From Bacillota bacterium (GTDB taxonomy: Bacteria > Bacillota > GCA-003054495 > Carboxydocellales > JAJZSN01), in contig JAJZSN010000013.1 in NCBI GenBank assembly GCA_021849745.1, positions 1 to 46,348 of the forward strand: DNA of 46,348 bases, read 5' to 3'. The translations under genes were made by a program, and so were the position numbers. The notes under the pieces are model-generated. The model saw nothing but the letters and a program-made list of their open reading frames with translations. It ran no database searches and was not told the DNA's origin. This document shows, in pieces, positions 135 to 46,201 of the stretch (position 1 is the stretch's first letter; every line of letters starts with the position of its first letter).

Positions 135-262
135 CGAAAATTAGCTTCAGGCTTCCTTTCCAAATGGGAGGCTTGCCCGTTTCCCGGCAAACCCTTTGAG
201 CAGGGATTAATCCTGCTCAGGCTAAGCACCATAGAATTTAGCTTAATTCTTTAGGTCTACTT
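98..262 (-). ncRNA. Leader-like structured RNA of unknown class ending in a terminator
   Basis: Read on the minus strand, successive helices can form: GCTAAG/CTTAGC enclosing GAATT/AATTC, then GAGCAGG/CCTGCTC (about 197-217), TTGCC/GGCAA (about 173-190), AAGCCTCC/GGAAGCCT with G-U pairs, and last a GCCAATGCC/GGTATTGGC hairpin followed by a T-rich tract. A string of helices ending in an intrinsic terminator is typical of a riboswitch or attenuator for a gene beyond the left edge. The bases did not match the SAM, TPP, cobalamin, Moco, c-di-AMP or c-di-GMP consensus motifs that I remember. It could instead be a free small RNA or a structured 3' region of phoH. Confidence 0.35.
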
Positions 263-326
263 AGCTCGGAAATAAGTTGTTATATATTATTTTATATCTT
301 TTTTCAGGAAAAATAAAGTTATTTTT

Positions 327-1661
327 TTAAATTAATTCTGCAGCCAGTTCAGCCAGTTCAGAACGCTCACCTTTGATGAAGGTGATATGACCGGCAAGAC
401 CGACTCCTTTAAACTTCTCAACAACAAAGCTTAAACCGTTGCTGTTGGAATCCAGATAGGGGTGGTCAATCTGATGGGGATCCCCGGTGAGAATGATCTT
501 AGTCCCCTCACCGGCCCGGGTCAACATGGTCTTAACCTCATGGGGTGTTAGATTCTGGGCCTCATCCACGATGATATACTGGTGAGGAATGGTGCGGCCC
601 CGAATATAAGTGATGGCCTCCAGTTCCAATTGACCTTTTTCCTTGAAATAACGAATCATGCTCTCGATATTGGTAACCTTGATATTCTCTTTATCCTTCT
701 TGGCTTCTTTAGCGCCGTTTAAAATATATTCTATATTATCATAGATGGGACTCATCCAGGGCCGCATCTTTTCATCTTTATCCCCCGGCAGGAAGCCGAT
801 ATCATTGCCCAGAGGCACCACCGGCCTGGTAATTAGCAGCTTCTTGAAAACCTCTTCATCCATAACCTTTTGCAAACCGGCAGCCACAGCCAACAAAGTT
901 TTTCCGGTACCCGCCTGCCCGATGAGGGTAATGAGCTTTACATTATCATCCAACAGCAATTCCATCGCAAAACGCTGTTCCCTGTTACGGGCTTTAATGC
1001 CCCAAGCATCATTATTGGCAAAAAGCAGGGGTACAACTCCCTTTTTCTCGGGTATATACCGAGCCAAAGCCGATTGAGTCCCTCCGTCGGTTAAGGCTAC
1101 GAACTGATTGGCAAAAAGCTCATCATCAGGCCAAGGTAAAAAGTTTTTCTTATAAAACTCATTAATCTTAGCAGATGATACTTCAACTTCCTGATAGCCA
1201 TTATATAATTCATCAATATTAACCCGGTCGGTCTTGTAGTCCTCAGCCCTAATCCCAAGAGCATCGGCCTTAATCCTCAGATAAGTATCCTTGGTGACAA
1301 GAATCACCGGTTTACGGGTATACTTTTGCTTGTAATAAAGAGCAACCGACAAAATCCTGTTATCAGATTTGCCATACAGCAATTCCTCCGGTAAATCAGC
1401 CCCTTCAGCGTTAAGCTCTACCTTGAACGACCCACCTCCGGCTAACTTAATGCCTTCGTGGAGCTTCCCCTGGAGTCGGAGTTGATCTATCATCTTGGCT
1501 ACCCTGCGGGCGTTTCTACCGACTTCATCTTGTCTCCTTTTCTGATCGTCCATTTCCTCGATAACCACTAATGGAATAACGATATCGTTATCCTGAAACT
1601 TAAAGAAAGCGTGGGGATCATGGAGCAGTACGTTGGTGTCTAAAACAAATATTTTCTTCAC
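327..1661 (-). CDS. PhoH-family ATPase with N-terminal PIN domain (YlaK-like)
   Basis: A 444-residue cytoplasmic protein. An N-terminal PIN-type nuclease domain (about 1-150) starts with FVLDTNVLLHDP, where the DTN aspartate is a metal ligand, and has further acidic residues in KSDNRILS and VTKDTYLR. A linker is followed by a PhoH/RecA-like NTPase domain (about 215-444) with Walker A GQAGTGKT and Walker B YIIVDEAQNLTP. This is the PIN-PhoH (PhoH2/YlaK) architecture, thought to be an ATP-dependent RNase or helicase in RNA metabolism; the in vivo substrate is not settled for the family. The start is GTG at 1661 (MKKIFVLDTN), because the PIN motif needs this N-terminus. It is monocistronic, downstream of the fdh operon in the same direction. 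Confidence 0.9.
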   Translation of the reverse strand: MKKIFVLDTNVLLHDPHAFFKFQDNDIVIPLVVIEEMDDQKRRQDEVGRNARRVAKMIDQLRLQGKLHEGIKLAGGGSFKVELNAEGADLPEELLYGKSDNRILSVALYYKQKYTRKPVILVTKDTYLRIKADALGIRAEDYKTDRVNIDELYNGYQEVEVSSAKINEFYKKNFLPWPDDELFANQFVALTDGGTQSALARYIPEKKGVVPLLFANNDAWGIKARNREQRFAMELLLDDNVKLITLIGQAGTGKTLLAVAAGLQKVMDEEVFKKLLITRPVVPLGNDIGFLPGDKDEKMRPWMSPIYDNIEYILNGAKEAKKDKENIKVTNIESMIRYFKEKGQLELEAITYIRGRTIPHQYIIVDEAQNLTPHEVKTMLTRAGEGTKIILTGDPHQIDHPYLDSNSNGLSFVVEKFKGVGLAGHITFIKGERSELAELAAELI

Positions 1662-34453: not shown

Positions 34454-35782
34454 TTAATATCTAGTTAAATAACTATCCAGCTCCCACTGATGAACCTTAG
34501 TCCGGTAGTCATCCCACTCTGCCAGTTTGGCTTCAGTATATTTATTGAAAATATGCTCCCCTAGAGCATCCTTAATAACAGGATTCTTGCCCAACTCTTC
34601 AATGGCCTCATAAAGGGAAGCAGGCAGACTAGCAATGCCTTCTTTTTCCCGCTCAGCGGCATCCATGTGATAAATATTCCGCTCAGTTGGAGCAGGAGGC
34701 TGAATCTTATTCTTAATACCATCTATCCCGGCAGCCAGCATAGCGGCCAGGGCCAAATAAGGATTGGTTGCGGGATCGGGGTTCCGCATTTCTACCCTGG
34801 TTGATAAGCCCCTCTTGGCAGGAATCCGAATTAGCGGACTACGGTTTCTCGGAGACCATGCTACATAAACCGGAGCCTCATAACCAGGTACCAACCTCTT
34901 ATAGGAGTTGACCAGAGGATTGGTAATAGCGGCAATGGCCCTGGCGTGTTTGATTAAGCCACCGATAAAGAACCTGGCATTTTCACTCAATTGATATTCT
35001 GCCTTGGGATCAAAGAAAGCATTTTCTTCCCCTTTGAACAGGGACAAGTTACAATGCATTCCCGAACCATTGATACCGAAAACAGGTTTAGGCATAAAGG
35101 TGGCATGAAGGCCATGCTGCTGAGCAATAGTCCGTACTACTGTTTTAAAGGTAACAATCCTGTCTGCACTACTCAAAGCATCAGCGTATTTGAAATCAAT
35201 TTCATGCTGTCCTTCAGCTACCTCGTGATGGGAAGCCTCAATCTCAAAGCCCATTTGCTCCAGATTAAGTACCATATCCCGGCGGGCATTTTCACCCAAG
35301 TCTACGGGTGCCAGGTCGAAATACCCCCCCTGGTCATGGGTATGGGTGGTAGGAACACCGTTCTCATCCTTATGGAAGAGGAAAAATTCCGCTTCAGGGC
35401 CAACATTCATACTGAAACCCAATTGAGCGGCTTCCGCCAAAACCCTCTTTAGATTACCCCTGGGATCCCCCGCAAAGGGAGTACCGTCAGGGTTATAAAT
35501 ATCACAAATCAATCGGGCCACCGCACCGTCTCTCGGCCGCCAGGGGAAAACAACAAAAGTGCTGGGATCCGGGCGAAGGTACATATCAGATTCTTCAATC
35601 CGCACAAATCCCTCAATGGATGAACCGTCAAACATCATTTCACCGTCCAGAGCCTTCTCCAATTGCTCAACGGTGATAGCTACGTTCTTGACAATACCCA
35701 GGATGTCGGTGAATTGCAAGCGGATGAATTTGACATCGTTCTCCTTGGCCAGTCTCAAAACATCATCCTTGGTAATGGCCAT
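34454..35782 (-). CDS. glnA: Type I glutamine synthetase
   Basis: A 442-residue enzyme joining ammonia and glutamate to glutamine with ATP. Features: beta-grasp N-domain with FDGSSIEGF (about 52-60), metal-binding GPEAEFFLF, the [11 protein letters not shown] histidine segment, and [16 protein letters not shown] near the ADP site. The ~440-residue size fits the GSI-alpha type of Firmicutes, usually feedback-inhibited rather than adenylylated. Start: ATG at 35782 after AAAGGTG. A terminator-antiterminator leader of the ANTAR type precedes it, and the REC-ANTAR gene lies directly upstream. Confidence 0.97.
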
Positions 35783-35817
35783 ACTAAACACACCTTTCTG
35801 TGAGTAATATAGGTATT

Positions 35818-35902
35818 AAAAAAAGCCTTCTAATATGGATTAGTATATCCATATCAGAAGGCCTCTTTGCCTGTTGGGAAAAGATACCTCTTCGTATCTT
35901 TT
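35818..35902 (-). promoter_or_regulatory. ANTAR-type antiterminator/terminator leader of glnA
   Basis: Minus-strand order: hairpin 1 AAAAGATAC-GAAGAG-GTATCTTTT (35879-35902), hairpin 2 AGGC-AAAGAG-GCCT (35859-35872), then a 16-bp terminator stem (35825-35840 with 35847-35862) and seven T. The 3' arm of hairpin 2 is part of the terminator 5' arm, so they exclude each other. Loop 2 fits the ANTAR rule (A at 1, G at 4); loop 1 has G at position 4 but G, not A, at position 1. Confidence 0.8.
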
Positions 35903-35976: not shown

Positions 35977-36558
35977 TTACCTAGAAATATCATAAGATAG
36001 AATAATGGCCTCTGCAATGGCTTTTTTAGTCACTCGTTTATTCATACTCTGCTGCTGTATATATCTAAAGGCATCCTGCTCCGATAGGTTTTTGGTCCTC
36101 ATTAAAATACCTTTAGCTTTATCCACTACCTTACGGGTAGCGATGTTTTCTTTCAGTTCAGAAATTTCCCTTTCCAGGGTAATCAATTTTTCGTATTTGG
36201 ATCTGGCCAGTTCGATATGGGCGTGCAGGCTGACCTCATTAACCGGTTTAAAAAGCAAGCTCATAACCCAGGAATCCTTTACCGTATTAATCCATTCTAC
36301 CTGGTGTGGTGAGGCCAAGAGCAATACAGGAGCCAAGCGGCCTTCTTCTACTATCTTCGCCACATCAATGGTATCCAATACAGGTAAATTAACATCTAGG
36401 ATTACCATATCCGGTTGAGTGCTGCGGATAAGAGTTAAAGCGGCCAAGCCGTCCTTGGCTTCCCCAACTACACCGTAACCTGCTTTCCCTAACATATCTT
36501 TCAGGCGTTTACGGGATCTATTATCACTGTCAGCTAAGACTATCCGCGAAAGATACAT
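35977..36558 (-). CDS. REC-ANTAR response regulator (RNA antiterminator)
   Basis: A 193-residue cytoplasmic protein. The receiver domain (1-115) has the acidic pair DSD near the start, phospho-acceptor Asp in MVILDVNLPV and the conserved Lys in LLFKPV. A coiled-coil segment (about 118-140) leads to the C-terminal ANTAR RNA-binding domain (about 138-190; RKVVDKAKGILMRTKNLSEQDAF). ANTAR proteins bind twin hexanucleotide-loop hairpins and prevent termination. The nearest targets are the glnA and gltB leaders in this window. No sensor kinase is adjacent. Start: ATG behind GGGTGA. Confidence 0.92.
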   Translation of the reverse strand: MYLSRIVLADSDNRSRKRLKDMLGKAGYGVVGEAKDGLAALTLIRSTQPDMVILDVNLPVLDTIDVAKIVEEGRLAPVLLLASPHQVEWINTVKDSWVMSLLFKPVNEVSLHAHIELARSKYEKLITLEREISELKENIATRKVVDKAKGILMRTKNLSEQDAFRYIQQQSMNKRVTKKAIAEAIILSYDISR

Positions 36559-36638: not shown

Positions 36639-36989
36639 TTAAATATCAATTAATCCCAGGCTGACTTCCACTGCCCGATTAATCTTTTCCATCTGTTCAT
36701 CATTTAACGTTGTAACTTTTTCTTTAAGGCGGGACTTATCAATGGTTCTAATCTGCTCTAGGAGTACTACCGAGTTTTTTTCCAGACCACTCTTCCCAGC
36801 TTTAATCTCAACATGGGTGGGCAATTTGGCTTTACTAATCTGTGAGGTTATGGCCGCAATAATGGTGGTAGGACTATACTGATTGCCGATATCGTTTTGC
36901 AACACTAAAACCGGTCTGGTACCACCTTGTTCTGAGCCAATAACCGGACTTAAGTCAGCAAAGTATATATCCCCTCTTCGGATTAACAT
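36639..36989 (-). CDS. ndoA: EndoA/MazF-type mRNA endoribonuclease toxin
   Basis: A 116-residue PemK/MazF-fold RNase. The N-terminus [30 protein letters not shown] is the hallmark of Firmicute EndoA (YdcE), with catalytic Arg and Thr in GGTRP and [14 protein letters not shown]. EndoA cleaves single-stranded RNA at a short U-containing site. It is two bases after the antitoxin gene, so the pair is coupled. Confidence 0.95.
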
Positions 36990-36991
36990 CT

Positions 36992-37264
36992 TTATTCCCC
37001 TTCCGCCATCGGCCAGGAAAGGTGCCCTACCTCTTGTTCAACAGTAAAATTTTCATTGGCTAGGGATAGGTTAATTTTGGCCATTTCCAGATAGCCTCTT
37101 TTCATCTGCTCCCTAATTATGCGACGCTTCCGCTCTTCAATGTAAAGTCTCATTGCTTCCCTGATAAACTCGCTGCGATTAAGGTTATCAGATTCAACTA
37201 TTCGGTCAACTTCTTTTAACAAGGCATCTGGGAGGCTGATCATGATTCTCTTGACCTCGGCCAC
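36992..37264 (-). CDS. EndoAI-type ribbon-helix-helix antitoxin
   Basis: A 90-residue protein. The N-terminal RHH DNA-binding domain is [35 protein letters not shown]; the C-terminal tail (about 55-90) would wrap the toxin. It neutralises EndoA and probably represses its own operon through the palindrome upstream. Start: GTG at 37264, six bases after GGAGGAGGTG. Confidence 0.93.
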
Positions 37265-37300
37265 TCAGCGCACCTCCTCCAGAGCATTTTATAGCACGCA

Positions 37301-39356: not shown

Positions 39357-39545
39357 CTCTCATCTTTCAGGTCAAACCTGCAGGACTTGGCACCTTTCTA
39401 TAAATGAGGTTGCTCTCGATGGCGAACCCGGACCCGGCGCCTCACGAAACTGCCCGAATCAAACTTCGAATTTCGAACCACTAACCTCAAGAAGGTTGCC
39501 GGGTTTCATCGGGCCTTCCCCTCCACCACTCTGGATAAGAGTTTT
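39357..39545 (-). promoter_or_regulatory. SAM-I (S-box) riboswitch
   Basis: Conserved S-box blocks in order on the minus strand: CTCTTATCCAGAGTGGTGGAG, GGCCCGATGAAACCCGGCAACC, AGGTGCCAAGTCCTGCAG and GAAAGATGAGAG closing P1. The P3/P4 region is longer than the minimal form. When SAM is bound, the downstream terminator forms and turns genes off. The downstream genes are the SsuBC-like ABC transporter. Confidence 0.95.
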
Positions 39546-39737: not shown

Positions 39738-41222
39738 TTAAGGTAAATTACTTGAGCCCATGAGATACTTATCCACTTCCCGGGCCGCACCCCGGCCTTC
39801 GTTGATGGCCCAGGCCACCAGACTCTGGCCCCGGCGGGCGTCACCGGCAGCAAAGATACCTTTGACATTGGTAGCAAATTTTCCGTACTCAGCCTTGGCA
39901 TTGGCGAAGTTATCCTTTTCCACGCCAAGCTGATCAAGGAGGTGGGCCTCAGGTCCCACGAAGCCCATGGCCAGTAATACTAACTGGGCCGACCAGACTT
40001 TTTCGGTGCCGGGGATTTCCTTGGGGTTAAACCGCCCTTGGTCATCCTTAACCCATTCTACCTCCACGGTATGGACTTCTTTAACATTTCCCTGGTCATC
40101 ACCGACAAATTTCTTAGTCAGGATGTTATAATTTCTCGGATCATCACCTTGGGCGGCTTTGGCTTCTTTTTGGCCGTAGTCCACTTTTAGCACCTTAGGA
40201 TACTGGGGCCAAGGATTATTATCAGCCCGCTCCTCCGAAGGCTTGGGCAGAATCTCTAACTGGGCGACACTGTTACACTTATGCCGTAAAGAAGTACCCA
40301 CACAGTCAGTTCCGGTGTCACCACCACCGATGACGATGACATCTTTACCTGCAGCCGAGACAAAATTACCGTCGGTGAGATTGGAATCCAACAGGCTCTT
40401 GGTATTAGCGCCAAGGAATTCCATGGCAAAATGAATGCCTTTTAAGTTCCGGCTTTCCACCGGCAGATCCCTGGGCACTGTTGATCCGACGCAAAGGACT
40501 ACTGCGTCAAAGTCTGCCAACAATTTAGCTGCAGGATAATTTTTGCCAATCTCGGTATTGGTTACGAATTTAATCCCTTCAGCAGCCAGAATATCAATTC
40601 GGCGCTGGATATATTTTTTGTCTAGCTTCATATTAGGAATCCCGTACATGAGGAGACCGCCAACCCGGTCGGCCCGTTCGAATACAGTTACCCAGTGACC
40701 GGCTTTATTTAATTGGGCGGCAGCAGCTAGGCCGGACGGCCCGGAGCCAACTACGGCAACTTTTTTACCGGTACGGATGGAGGGAGGCTGTGGTACTACC
40801 CAACCCTCGGCATAAGCCCGTTCGATGATGCTGTATTCGTTATTCTTAACAGTTACCGGTTCAGCATTCAAACCTACGGTACATGCCCCTTCACAGAGGG
40901 CCGGACAAACCCGGCCGGTAAACTCGGGAAAGTTGTTGGTTTTAACCAAACGCTCATAAGCTTCTTTCCACAAGCCCCGGAAAATCAAGTCATTCCATTC
41001 AGGGCACAGGTTATTCACAGGACAACCCGATGGTACACCATTAAGAACAGTACCCATGTGGCAGAAGGGCACACCGCAGTCCATACAACGGGCTCCCTGT
41101 TTTTTCAGTTGTTCTTCAGAAATATCCTCATATAATTCCTGCCAATCTTTGAGCCGTTCAATGGGGGCACGATCAGCAGGGAGTTCACGGTTATATTCCA
41201 AAAATCCGGTTGGTTTTCCCAT
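39738..41222 (-). CDS. gltD: Glutamate synthase small subunit
   Basis: A 494-residue flavoprotein that carries electrons from NAD(P)H to the large subunit. The N-terminal Fe-S region has [20 protein letters not shown] and [11 protein letters not shown] binding: [18 protein letters not shown](P) binding: [13 protein letters not shown]. Start: ATG nine bases after GGGAGG. It follows gltB by 36 bases. Its length and clusters are standard for bacterial GltD. Confidence 0.96.
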
Positions 41223-41258: not shown

Positions 41259-44200
41259 TTAGCCGATATTTTCCTTAAAGGCGGCCAGAAAAGCTGCTTC
41301 ACCCTCTAAGCCCGAATCTTGAGCCCGGTCAATGGCCTCAATCATCTTCTTGAAATCCTTAGGAATAACTCGGACGAACTTCGGTAATAGTGCTTCCCAA
41401 TTTTTGAGCACCTTTTCCCCAAGGGTACTCTTGGTGTACTTGACATGGTTTTCAATCATCCCTTTAACCTGGGCAACTTCCTCAGGCTTTTGGTCAACAA
41501 GGGATTCAAGTAGTACCATATCCTTATTGCAACGGGTGGCAAAGGTGCCGGCTTCGTCCAGTACGTAGGCGATTCCACCGGACATCCCGGCCGCAAAGTT
41601 CCGGCCGGTGGAGCCAAGGATAACAACCCGGCCACCGGTCATGTATTCACAACCGTGGTCGCCCACACCTTCCACAACAGCCTGCACACCACTGTTCCGC
41701 ACACAGAATCTTTCCCCGGCGATACCGTGAATATAAGCTTCACCGGAGGTAGCTCCATATAAAACAGTGTTGCCGACAATTATATTTTCTTCCGGCACAA
41801 AAGTAGATTTTTCGGAAGGGAAAACAGCCAGCTTACCACCGGAAAGGCCTTTGCCGAAATAGTCATTGGCATCCCCTTCAAGGAGCATGGTAATTCCTTT
41901 GGGTACGAAGGCACCGAAACTTTGCCCGGCTGAGCCTTTGAAGTAGAGGCGCACGGTATCTTCAGGCAAGCCTGTTTCACCATAACGTTTACTTACTTCA
42001 CTACCCAAGATGGTTCCTACTACCCGGTCGGTATTCTTGATTGGTAAAATGGCCTCCACAGGCTCTTTGTTTTCCAAGGCAGAGGCGCAAATCTTTACGA
42101 TTTCCCGCATATCCAAAGATTGGTCTAACTTGTGGTCTTGCTCTATTTGGCAATATCTACCCACATTTTCAGCAACCTCAGGCTGGTAGAGTAAGGCCGA
42201 AAGATCTACACCCTTAGCTTTCCAATGTTGAACTGCTTTTTTGGGTTCAAGGACATCAGTCCGGCCAACCATTTCGTTGATGGTCCGGAAGCCTAACTGA
42301 GCCATAATCTCCCGCATTTCCTGGGCGATAAAGCGCATGAAGTTAACCACATGCTCTGGGTCACCCTTGAACCGAGCCCGCAGTTCTGGGTTCTGGGTAG
42401 CTATACCCACTGGGCAGGTATCTAAATGACATACCCGCATCATCACACAACCCAATACCACCAATGGTGCGGTGGAGAAACCATATTCCTCGGCCCCGAG
42501 GAGGGTAGCGACAATAACATCCCGGCCGGTCATCAGCTTGCCGTCGGTTTCCACTACGATTCTATCCCGCAGGTTATTTAAGAGCAGGGTCTGATGGGTT
42601 TCGGCTAATCCTAATTCCCATGGCAAACCGGCATGCTTGATACTGGTTCTGGGTGATGCACCGGTACCACCGTCATAGCCGCTGATTAGAACCACGTCGG
42701 CCCGGCCTTTGGCTACCCCGGCAGCAATGGTACCTACCCCTGCTTCAGAAACCAGCTTAACATTAATCCTGGCCCTGGGGTTAGCATTCTTTAAATCGTG
42801 AATCAATTCAGCCAAATCCTCGATGGAGTAAATATCATGATGGGGCGGTGGTGAAATCAGTTCCACCCCTGGGGTAGAATGTCTTACCTTAGCTACCCAT
42901 GGATAAACCTTCTTGCCAGGTAACTGGCCGCCTTCGCCAGGCTTGGCTCCCTGGGCCATCTTAATCTGAATTTCGTCAGCATTAATCAAGTAATTACTGG
43001 TTACTCCGAATCTACCGGAAGCTACCTGCTTAATGGAGCTTCTTCTTAAATCACCATTGGCATCAGGAGTGAAACGGTCAGGGTCTTCTCCCCCTTCACC
43101 GGTGTTACTTCTGCCGCCGATACGGTTCATGGCAATAGCCAAGGCTTCGTGGGCCTCTTTACTGATGGAACCAAAGGACATGGCCCCAGTCTTAAAGCGC
43201 TTACAAATATCTTCCACAGACTCAACTTCATCAATAGGGATTGCTTTTCTGCCCTTCTTCAACTCTAAGAGTCCCCGTAAGGTACTAACTTGTTGGGTTT
43301 GTTCATCCAACAGAGCGGAATACTTCTTAAATAACTCATAGTCGCCATTGCGGCAGGCTTCCTGAAGGTAGGTAATGGACTCCGGATTAAATAGATGATA
43401 TTCGCCGTTTTTACGCCACTGGAAATCAGACCCTGATTCAAGGGTTTTGTCACGGCCCTCCTGCTCAGAAAAGGCCCGCTTGTGGTTGAGCAGAGTTTCC
43501 TCGGCAATGACATCTAAACCAATACCACCGATTCTGGAAGCTGTCCAGGTAAAGTATTTATCAATAACCTCTTGGTTGATACCAACGGCTTCAAAAATCT
43601 GAGCACCACGGTAACTCTGGATGGTGGAAATACCCATCTTGGACATTACTTTCACAACACCCTTAGTGGCCGCTTTAATGTAGTTCTTAACAGCATCCTT
43701 ATGCTTGATATTGGGCAAGAGGTTCTGGCCAATCATATCATCAATAGATTCAATGGCCAGGTATGGGTTGACAGCACTCACACCAAAACCTAACAGCAAG
43801 GCAAAATGATGAACTTCTCGAGGCTCACCGGATTCAAGAATCAAGCTAACCTTCGTCCGGGTACCTTCCCGAACCAAGTGGTGATGCAAACCGGAAACCG
43901 CCAACAAGGCAGGGATAGCAGCATTTTTGGAATCTACACCCCGGTCGGATAAAATCAAAATATTAGCCCCGCCGCTAATGGCGCTGTCCGCTGCTTGGTA
44001 CAGATCGGCCAAAGCCTGCTCCATCCCTTTAGCGCCTTGGGCAGCTTTAAAATGAATAGATAACGTAATGGTTTTGAAGCCTTTACGGTTAACAAAACGG
44101 ATTTTGGCCAGTTCTTCGTTGCTGATAACAGGATTCTTCAACCGAATCTGCCGACAGCTCTCCGGCACCGGTTTAATCAGGTTGCCCTCAGAACCGATGG

Positions 44201-45854
44201 TGGTAATAGTGGCAGTAATGATTTCTTCCCGAATAGCATCAATAGGGGGATTGGTTACCTGGGCAAATAATTGTTTAAAGTAGTCGTATAAAAGCCTGGG
44301 CCGATTGGATAATACCGCCAAAGGAGAATCATGACCCATGGCCCCGGTAGGCTCAATACCATTCTGAGCCATGGGAGCAATAGTCTGAGTTAAATCTTCA
44401 AAGGTATAGTTAAAAACCTGCTGCCGTTGTAAGACGGTATCGTGGTCAGGCTCTGGAACCTCAGAAGCCTCAGGCAGGTCTTCCAGATTAACCAGATGCT
44501 CTGCTACCCATTGTTGATAAGGTTGTTCAGTGGCAATTTGATGTTTTAATTCTTCATCGGAAACAATACGCCCGGCCTCGGTATCAACCAAAAGCATCCG
44601 ACCAGGACGTAAGCGCTCCTTTATTAAAACATTCTCAGGAGCAACATCTACTACCCCTACCTCAGAGGCTAGAATAATCATGTCATCTTTAGTTACATAG
44701 TAACGGGAAGGTCTTAAGCCATTCCGGTCAAGGACCGCACCGATAATTTTGCCATCAGTAAAGGCCACGGCTGCAGGGCCGTCCCATGGTTCCATCAGAC
44801 AACTATGATATTCATAGAAGGCTTTTTTCTCCGGACTCATGGTCTCATGGTTTTGCCACGGCTCAGGAATCATCATCATGGCGGCATGAGGCAGAGACCG
44901 CCCGGATAGGTATAGGAATTCCAAAGTGTTATCAAATATTTGGGAATCACTACCGTCATTATCAACAATGGGTAGAATCTTGGCCATATCATCACCGAAA
45001 ACCTCAGATTGACACATAGCCTGACGGGCACGCATCCAGTTGACATTTCCCCGCAGGGTGTTGATTTCCCCATTGTGAATCATGTAACGGTAAGGGTGGG
45101 CACGCTCCCAGCTGGGGAAGGTATTGGTACTGAATCTGGAGTGCACTAGGGCCATGGCCGTTTCTACAGCAGAATCCTGGAGATCCAGATAAAAAGCATC
45201 CACCTGCTCAGGAGTAAGCATTCCTTTGTAAACTATGGTACTGGTGGAAAGGCTGACAAAGAAGAAAAACTCTCCGCCCTTCATACCGGAATGGCGAATA
45301 GCGTTTTCCGCCCGCTTCCGAATGACATAAATTTCCCGCTCAAAAGCAAGTTTATCCTGGGCCAGTTTACTCTTGGTTGCTTCTCCGGGAGTAATAAAAA
45401 TCTGCCTAATAAAGGGCTGTAAAGATTTAGCGGTATCTCCCAAAGAAGAGTTATCAGTGGGCACAGTTCTCCACCCTAGAACTACCTGCCCTTCTTCCTT
45501 GATGATATTCTCCAGAATTTCTTCACTCTTTCGACGTTCCTCGGCGTCTGGGGAGAGGAACAACATACCCACACCATATTCTCCGACTTCAGGCAGTTGC
45601 AAATCTAACTTTGCACATTCCTTTTTGAGGAAGGCATGGGGAATTTGAATCAAAATCCCAGCACCGTCACCGGTATTGGTTTCGCTACCCTGACCACCCC
45701 GATGGTCAAGATTAACCAGAGTTCTTAAAGCCTGATGGATAATGGAATTAGTTTTTTTACCTTTAATATTGGCAAGCATACCAATCCCACAGGCATCACG
45801 TTCAAAGCGGGGATCGTATAAACCTTGTTTACGAGGCAATCCGTTGATTTTCAT
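41259..45854 (-). CDS. gltB: Glutamate synthase large subunit
   Basis: A 1531-residue enzyme; with GltD it makes two glutamates from glutamine and 2-oxoglutarate. The class II glutaminase domain has its nucleophile at Cys22 ([10 protein letters not shown]), so a 21-residue propeptide must be removed. The FMN synthase domain follows (about 850-1230; [21 protein letters not shown]), then the 3Fe-4S cysteines in [15 protein letters not shown], and the C-terminal beta-helix domain with G-x-x-G repeats (about 1270-1500). Start: ATG at 45854. An ANTAR-type leader and a strong promoter lie upstream. Confidence 0.97.
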
Positions 45855-46036
45855 GCTTATGCAACCTTTCTTTGATAAATTTTATAAATTATAAAAAGAA
45901 ACTTACTGATACAAATCTGTTAGCATTTATATAAAAGGCTTCAGGACACCAATCCGTCCTTTATCCTATGACTCATGCAATCGAATTTACATAGTTCGAC
46001 ATAATTTACAAAAATCTAGTATTAATTATAGACCAC

Positions 46037-46125
46037 AAAAAAAGACGTCCTCAAGCAAGGGTTACGATAACCCTTATCCCGAGACGCCTTTGTCCCTGGT
46101 GCTGCAAATACCCCGATGTATTTGC
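46037..46125 (-). promoter_or_regulatory. ANTAR-type antiterminator/terminator leader of gltB
   Basis: Minus-strand order: hairpin 1 GCAAATAC-ATCGGG-GTATTTGC (46104-46125), hairpin 2 GGGAC-AAAGGC-GTCTC (46081-46096, one G-U), then a terminator whose 5' arm begins inside hairpin 2 (GCGTCTC pairing with the GAGGACGT arm) and whose inner stem is AAGGGTTA-TCG-TAACCCTT, ending in seven T. Both loops are six bases with A at 1 and G at 4, the ANTAR rule. Confidence 0.85.
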
Positions 46126-46172
46126 CTCCATTTAAGTGATAAAAATGCTATGTTGTTTTATAGTCAAACATA

Positions 46173-46201
46173 ATTATAACAAAACCCGCTATACATGCCA
46201 A
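46173..46201 (-). promoter_or_regulatory. Promoter of gltB
   Basis: TTGGCA (46196-46201), 17-base spacer, TATAAT (46173-46178) on the minus strand, about 48 bases before the first ANTAR hairpin. A second, weaker TTGACT/TTTTAT pair lies downstream of it. Confidence 0.75.

Follow-up and report, generated by a model that had tools for sequence, protein, structure and literature searches.

In Klebsiella, the nasF leader is controlled by NasR, an ANTAR protein which acts on a nitrogen operon by antitermination and senses nitrate via a fused NIT domain. The leader of the glutamate synthase operon gltBD analysed here is likewise predicted to place a nitrogen operon under ANTAR antitermination, whereas the ANTAR proteins of its genome carry a receiver-like N-terminal part. 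The likeness to EutV/EutW of Enterococcus faecalis (PMC3369931, PMC8934654) lies in the RNA geometry, the A1/G4 loops (A at loop position 1, G at position 4), the AC/GU closing pairs, the overlap of the second hairpin (P2) with the terminator and the ANTAR contact residues, which are kept here. EutV differs in its complete phosphorylation site and cognate kinase, while the receivers here are degenerate and no kinase gene adjoins the copy in the window.

For Desulfotomaculum reducens, Ramesh et al. 2012 (PMC3369931, Fig. 9A) also predicted ANTAR RNAs upstream of glutamate synthase genes, and the same paper (PMC3369931) described a multi-operon nitrogen set of such RNAs for D. acetoxidans. The D. 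reducens cases share with this locus the dual hexaloop hairpins, the overlapping terminator, the downstream glutamate synthase, a genome with REC-ANTAR proteins and the nitrogen theme; they differ in belonging to another organism, and a large single-chain gltB followed by gltD is the arrangement here. For NitR of Clostridium saccharobutylicum, induction of GS/GOGAT by antitermination on nitrogen limitation was reported (PMC6316151 citing Stutz et al. 2007). In the account given there, NitR resembles the present case in an ANTAR protein adjoining nitrogen-assimilation genes, in GS/GOGAT antitermination and in the induction by nitrogen limitation that may be expected here, whereas here about 3.7 kb containing other genes separate gltBD from the ANTAR gene, and the set also includes asnB and a second ANTAR gene. 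Both the mechanism and the kind of leader are already published, and the gltBD leader is a well-supported further case, not a new kind. It offers a compact testable case, with glutamine synthetase, glutamate synthase, asparagine synthetase and an ANTAR gene apparently under one antitermination system.

The window, that is the whole stretch of 46,348 nucleotides analysed, is one entire contig (C4) of a 3.1 Mb draft genome. The gltB gene (41259-45854, minus strand) encodes a glutamate synthase large subunit of 1531 aa (NF008730, 1770 bits), for which the nearest named sequence is from Heliobacterium (72%). The small subunit gene gltD (39738-41222, minus strand; Pfam Fer4_20 and Pyr_redox_2) begins 36 nt after gltB. 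The leader lies upstream of gltB on the minus strand, and the position given in the initial annotation, 46037-46125, was exact. Two A1/G4 hexaloop hairpins (ATCGGG and AAAGGC) and a terminator sharing bases with P2 had been claimed there, and all were confirmed by folding. The first hairpin, P1 (46104-46125, minus strand), has a stem of 8 bp (GCAAATAC-ATCGGG-GTATTTGC, -7.9 kcal/mol; as RNA GCAAATAC-AUCGGG-GUAUUUGC, 46125-46104) and its hexaloop AUCGGG at 46117-46112. P2 (46081-46096, minus strand; GGGAC-AAAGGC-GTCTC) has 5 bp, GGGAC/GUCUC, and its hexaloop AAAGGC at 46091-46086; two further C-G pairs are possible at its base, giving -7.8 kcal/mol. The intrinsic terminator (46037-46091, minus strand) consists of a stem at 46091-46041 of -26.9 kcal/mol, with a run of seven U at 46043-46037.

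The 5' arm of the terminator begins within the P2 loop and uses the entire 3' arm of P2, so the P2 and terminator folds exclude each other through shared bases. In the minimum-energy fold of the leader P1 is kept and the terminator replaces P2, the same pattern as published for eutP. AC/GU pairs close both loops, and EutV required these same closing pairs in eutP (PMC3369931). P1 and P2 are separated by 7 nt between continuous stems, or about 4 nt should the two additional C-G pairs be formed; the functional linker range in eut is 5-12 nt, with 3 and 14 impaired, and the 7-nt linker falls inside the range expected of an ANTAR-target RNA. The minus strand of 46020-46140 gave a folding z of -6.7, and folding of the plus strand, which has no gene there, gave nothing beyond mirror images of the hairpins on the minus strand. 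The Rfam scan of the gltB leader returned no meaningful family match, even at E up to 10.

Two results bear on whether chance could produce such an arrangement. With lax settings (two A..G.. hexaloops on stems of at least 4 bp, one of at least 5 bp, a short linker and a following U run), a search of the two strands of the 46 kb window found exactly one match, the gltB leader. In 100 simulated Markov-1 windows there were 0.22 lax matches each, none with P1 of at least 7 bp and P2 of at least 5 bp. When position 1 was relaxed to A or G, the glnA leader and one chance match inside a coding region were added. A covariance model, R1, was then built from 14 dual hairpins with overlapping terminators, seeded from the own genome and from ANTAR gene neighbourhoods in relatives, with the gltB leader left out; its seeds were picked by the same pairing rule, so that covariation in A1/A2 is in part a product of that choice. 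R1 matched the gltB leader at 46081-46124 with 31.9 bits and E = 7.5e-5 over the whole 3.1 Mb genome. This match, obtained from a model built without it, and the ANTAR genes of the genome support the reading of the leader as an ANTAR-target geometry.

Four strong R1 sites were present in the own genome (42.4, 39.7, 38.1 and 31.9 bits), while the next site scored 17.1; the calibration was short, which leaves the E-values rough but this gap in bit score unaffected. They precede asnB (C20), the second ANTAR gene (C134), glnA (C4) and gltB (C4), and each is followed by a terminator-like hairpin and a U run. The asnB and gltB sites were absent from the R1 seeds, and among the four leaders that of gltB scores lowest. 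The glnA leader (35818-35902, minus strand; 38.1 bits) has the P1 loop GAAGAG, with G at position 1, the P2 loop AAAGAG and an overlapping terminator, and stands before a type I glutamine synthetase gene (34454-35791, minus strand; TIGR00653, 600.9 bits). The best ANTAR leader of the genome (L164, G000:C20:28406-28447, minus strand) lies before asnB, as do those of L174 and L197.

With high confidence, the gltB leader is an ANTAR-target dual-hexaloop antiterminator standing before the gltBD operon, to which binding is predicted, and very probably nitrogen assimilation is switched on by antitermination in this organism. Transcripts would start at the promoter near 46173-46201, and by default the terminator 46091-46037 would fold, so that most would end some 130 nt downstream of the start. 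On the emerging transcript an active ANTAR protein would bind first P1 and then P2; P2 would hold the bases required by the 5' arm of the terminator, and RNA polymerase would continue into gltB and gltD. The sequences show the anatomy, the mutually exclusive folds, the family match, the co-occurrence with ANTAR genes and the shared regulon; protein binding, the way in which control runs, the inducing signal and the identity of the acting ANTAR protein are inferred. The same switch also precedes glnA, asnB and one ANTAR gene, and for this reason the ammonium-assimilation genes appear to form one antitermination regulon. By analogy with NitR of C. saccharobutylicum, the regulon would probably be induced when nitrogen is short.

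The strong promoter claimed upstream of the leader could be retained in part. A site resembling a promoter lies at 46173-46201 (minus strand); it reads TTGGCA-17-TATAAT, has TG preceding the -10 element and agrees with the consensus in 11 of 12 positions, which would put the expected transcription start near 46166. Since promoter-like sites in the window are near chance frequency (4 found vs 2.9 expected), this promoter is taken as plausible. A possible second promoter, TTGAGG-18-TATAAT, lies just past the terminator at 46025-46054 (minus strand); it may be due to chance, and it could give terminator-independent basal transcription of gltBD.

That site is also a starting point for a rival explanation, in which the terminator is a plain intrinsic one, either belonging to an upstream gene or acting as a constitutive attenuator, the hexaloops are fortuitous and gltBD is read from a downstream promoter. 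The TATAAT with its weak -35 element (TTGAGG, 18 nt) at 46054-46025, directly after the terminator, would suit it, as would the 186 nt between terminator and gltB start and the end of the contig only 220 nt upstream of the leader. The match of the dual hairpin is nevertheless far above chance, three more such leaders stand before nitrogen genes in the genome, and the strong promoter-like site upstream of P1 points in the same direction as the leader, which together make this explanation improbable. Still less likely is that the ANTAR-bound leader works mainly as a small RNA, its terminated short transcript titrating ANTAR protein in the manner put forward for EutX/Rli55. Termination should yield a product of about 130 nt with intact P1, and single hexaloops can bind EutV (PMC8934654), but the leader lies directly before gltBD and others directly before glnA and asnB, and no separate non-coding unit was seen. 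The least probable is control of the terminator by another kind of leader element, such as a riboswitch, a T-box or a leader peptide: SAM and Moco riboswitches in the same window indicate that the organism uses such switches, whereas it is the ANTAR model that matches this leader and Rfam gave nothing meaningful.

The association of R1 with ANTAR proteins was followed in 150 genomes, taking E <= 0.05 as a match and E <= 1e-3 as a strong one. A REC-ANTAR protein match was present in 41 of the 52 genomes with R1 matches vs 22 of the 98 without (Fisher 2e-11), and the association held without the seed genomes (Fisher 1.4e-8). Five genomes with strong matches seemed to have no REC-ANTAR protein, and all five carry the ANTAR domain PF03861, so every genome among the 150 with an R1 match at E <= 1e-3 encodes an ANTAR protein. 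The R1 matches of the six remaining genomes that had no REC-ANTAR match were weak (E 0.007-0.036), about what chance would give. On the same strand, 28 of 100 R1 matches lay within 300 nt of an ANTAR gene, a count biased upward by the seed neighbourhoods (15 of 65 without seed genomes), and none did so on the opposite strand. Half of these 28 were upstream of the ANTAR gene and the 14 others downstream, usually between the ANTAR gene and glnA. The 14 leaders found no more than 300 nt upstream, of which L001 1000-1085 (G000:C134) is an example, suggest that these ANTAR genes are autoregulated; the second ANTAR gene of the own genome (C134) itself bears the leader.

The genes behind the best R1 matches, as read from translations, were mostly glnA. 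Others encode a glutamate synthase amidotransferase subunit, AsnB, an ammonium transporter (amtB) and carbamoyl-phosphate synthase, and further ones a nitrite reductase and a nitrate transporter-like protein, in agreement with the nitrogen theme of ANTAR RNAs reported by Ramesh et al. (PMC3369931). Two further arrangements were noted among the R1 sites. One is a glnA leader (L125 2362-2470, G112) with three successive hexaloop hairpins before one terminator, the first having G at position 1. Another is a pair of divergent ANTAR motifs 180 nt apart (L192, G067; 1281-1321, minus strand, and 1501-1541, plus strand), one of which precedes a nitrate transporter-like gene.

Two ANTAR genes were found in the genome, scoring 77.6 and 73.9 bits. 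A REC-ANTAR protein resembling NitR is encoded in the window at 35977-36558 (minus strand), directly upstream of glnA; its ANTAR domain scored 71.7 bits and it matches Rv1626 (1s8n) and EutV (6wsh). It is the likeliest candidate for the trans-acting factor of the gltB leader. The second gene is located at L001 1105-1692. When the hexaloop contact residues of EutV were taken from PMC8934654, both proteins were found to keep R142, K143, K147, K149, E160, M172 and R175. Tyr164 is replaced by Phe in both, which keeps the aromatic residue, R168 by Q and R177 by T/S, and the window protein retains N173, where the second has D.

The initial annotation had assumed that a phosphorylated REC-ANTAR protein acts on the leader, and this part was unsupported as stated, the receivers lacking a complete phosphorylation site. 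At the receiver site, where EutV has D,D,D,S,K, the window protein reads D,S,D,A,K and its counterpart on C134 reads I,K,D,G,G. A complete canonical five-residue phosphorylation site was found in none of the 21 nitrogen-linked REC-ANTAR proteins examined (window, L001, L115-L156), and the phospho-acceptor Asp was missing or replaced in 7 of 20 proteins from other genomes or the window. Inspection by eye around the window ANTAR gene revealed no adjoining kinase gene. Because the receivers are degenerate and no kinase adjoins the window gene, the phosphorylation step of EutV should not be assumed here, and the model built on it may not be transferable. The degenerate sites suggest a signal other than a histidine kinase for nitrogen-linked ANTAR proteins. 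It is conceivable, though rather doubtful, that the nitrogen-type ANTAR proteins form a phosphorylation-independent class of antiterminators whose receivers would sense nitrogen otherwise, e.g. via contact with glutamine synthetase or PII; if true, the gltBD leader would belong to a regulon that a pseudo-receiver reads. The case sharpens the question by which route nitrogen status is signalled to the ANTAR proteins of this group, whose RNA-contact residues are kept while the phosphorylation site is not.

Among 39 aligned family members, 77 of 78 loops have G at position 4, and at position 1 there is A in 71 of 78 and G in 7 of 78; since G1 occurs in those seven loops, the strict A1 criterion was dropped. 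Loop L1 of the gltB leader has U at position 2, where 37 of the 39 members have A. The alignment has 97.6% of its cells paired, and was fitted to the model, so that the high pairing and covariation lean towards it.

Conservation of the A1/G4 positions in orthologous gltB leaders, by which the initial annotation would judge the leader, gave a mixed result that leans towards the ANTAR reading. The leader was absent in the closest gltB orthologues (L004-L006, L008, L033 and L034), among them those 75-76% identical and from the same order, G052 and Heliobacterium, and because of this the gltB leader is lineage-specific relative to its nearest orthologues. None of 80 gltB loci of many phyla had the leader either. 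In 399 genomes of the phylum it was found before three more distant large gltB genes from other families (L204, L207 and L211), no more than about 150 nt from the start codon and each time with two hexaloops and an overlapping terminator, and in one genome (G120) an ANTAR motif heads a glnA-gltB pair (L161). As judged from these sequences, ANTAR control of the large gltB is recurrent and patchy, and would have been gained repeatedly or often lost.

Some other elements of the window were noted. A Moco riboswitch (137-283, minus strand; 79.8 bits) lies where the contig end cuts off the controlled gene, and a SAM riboswitch (39357-39541, minus strand; 79.7 bits) stands directly before an ABC transporter of nitrate/taurine type (SaoA/SaoP-like, 39161-37454). 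Between this transporter and the ANTAR-glnA pair, a MazF-like toxin gene with a small antitoxin-like gene upstream was observed at 36639-37280 (minus strand).
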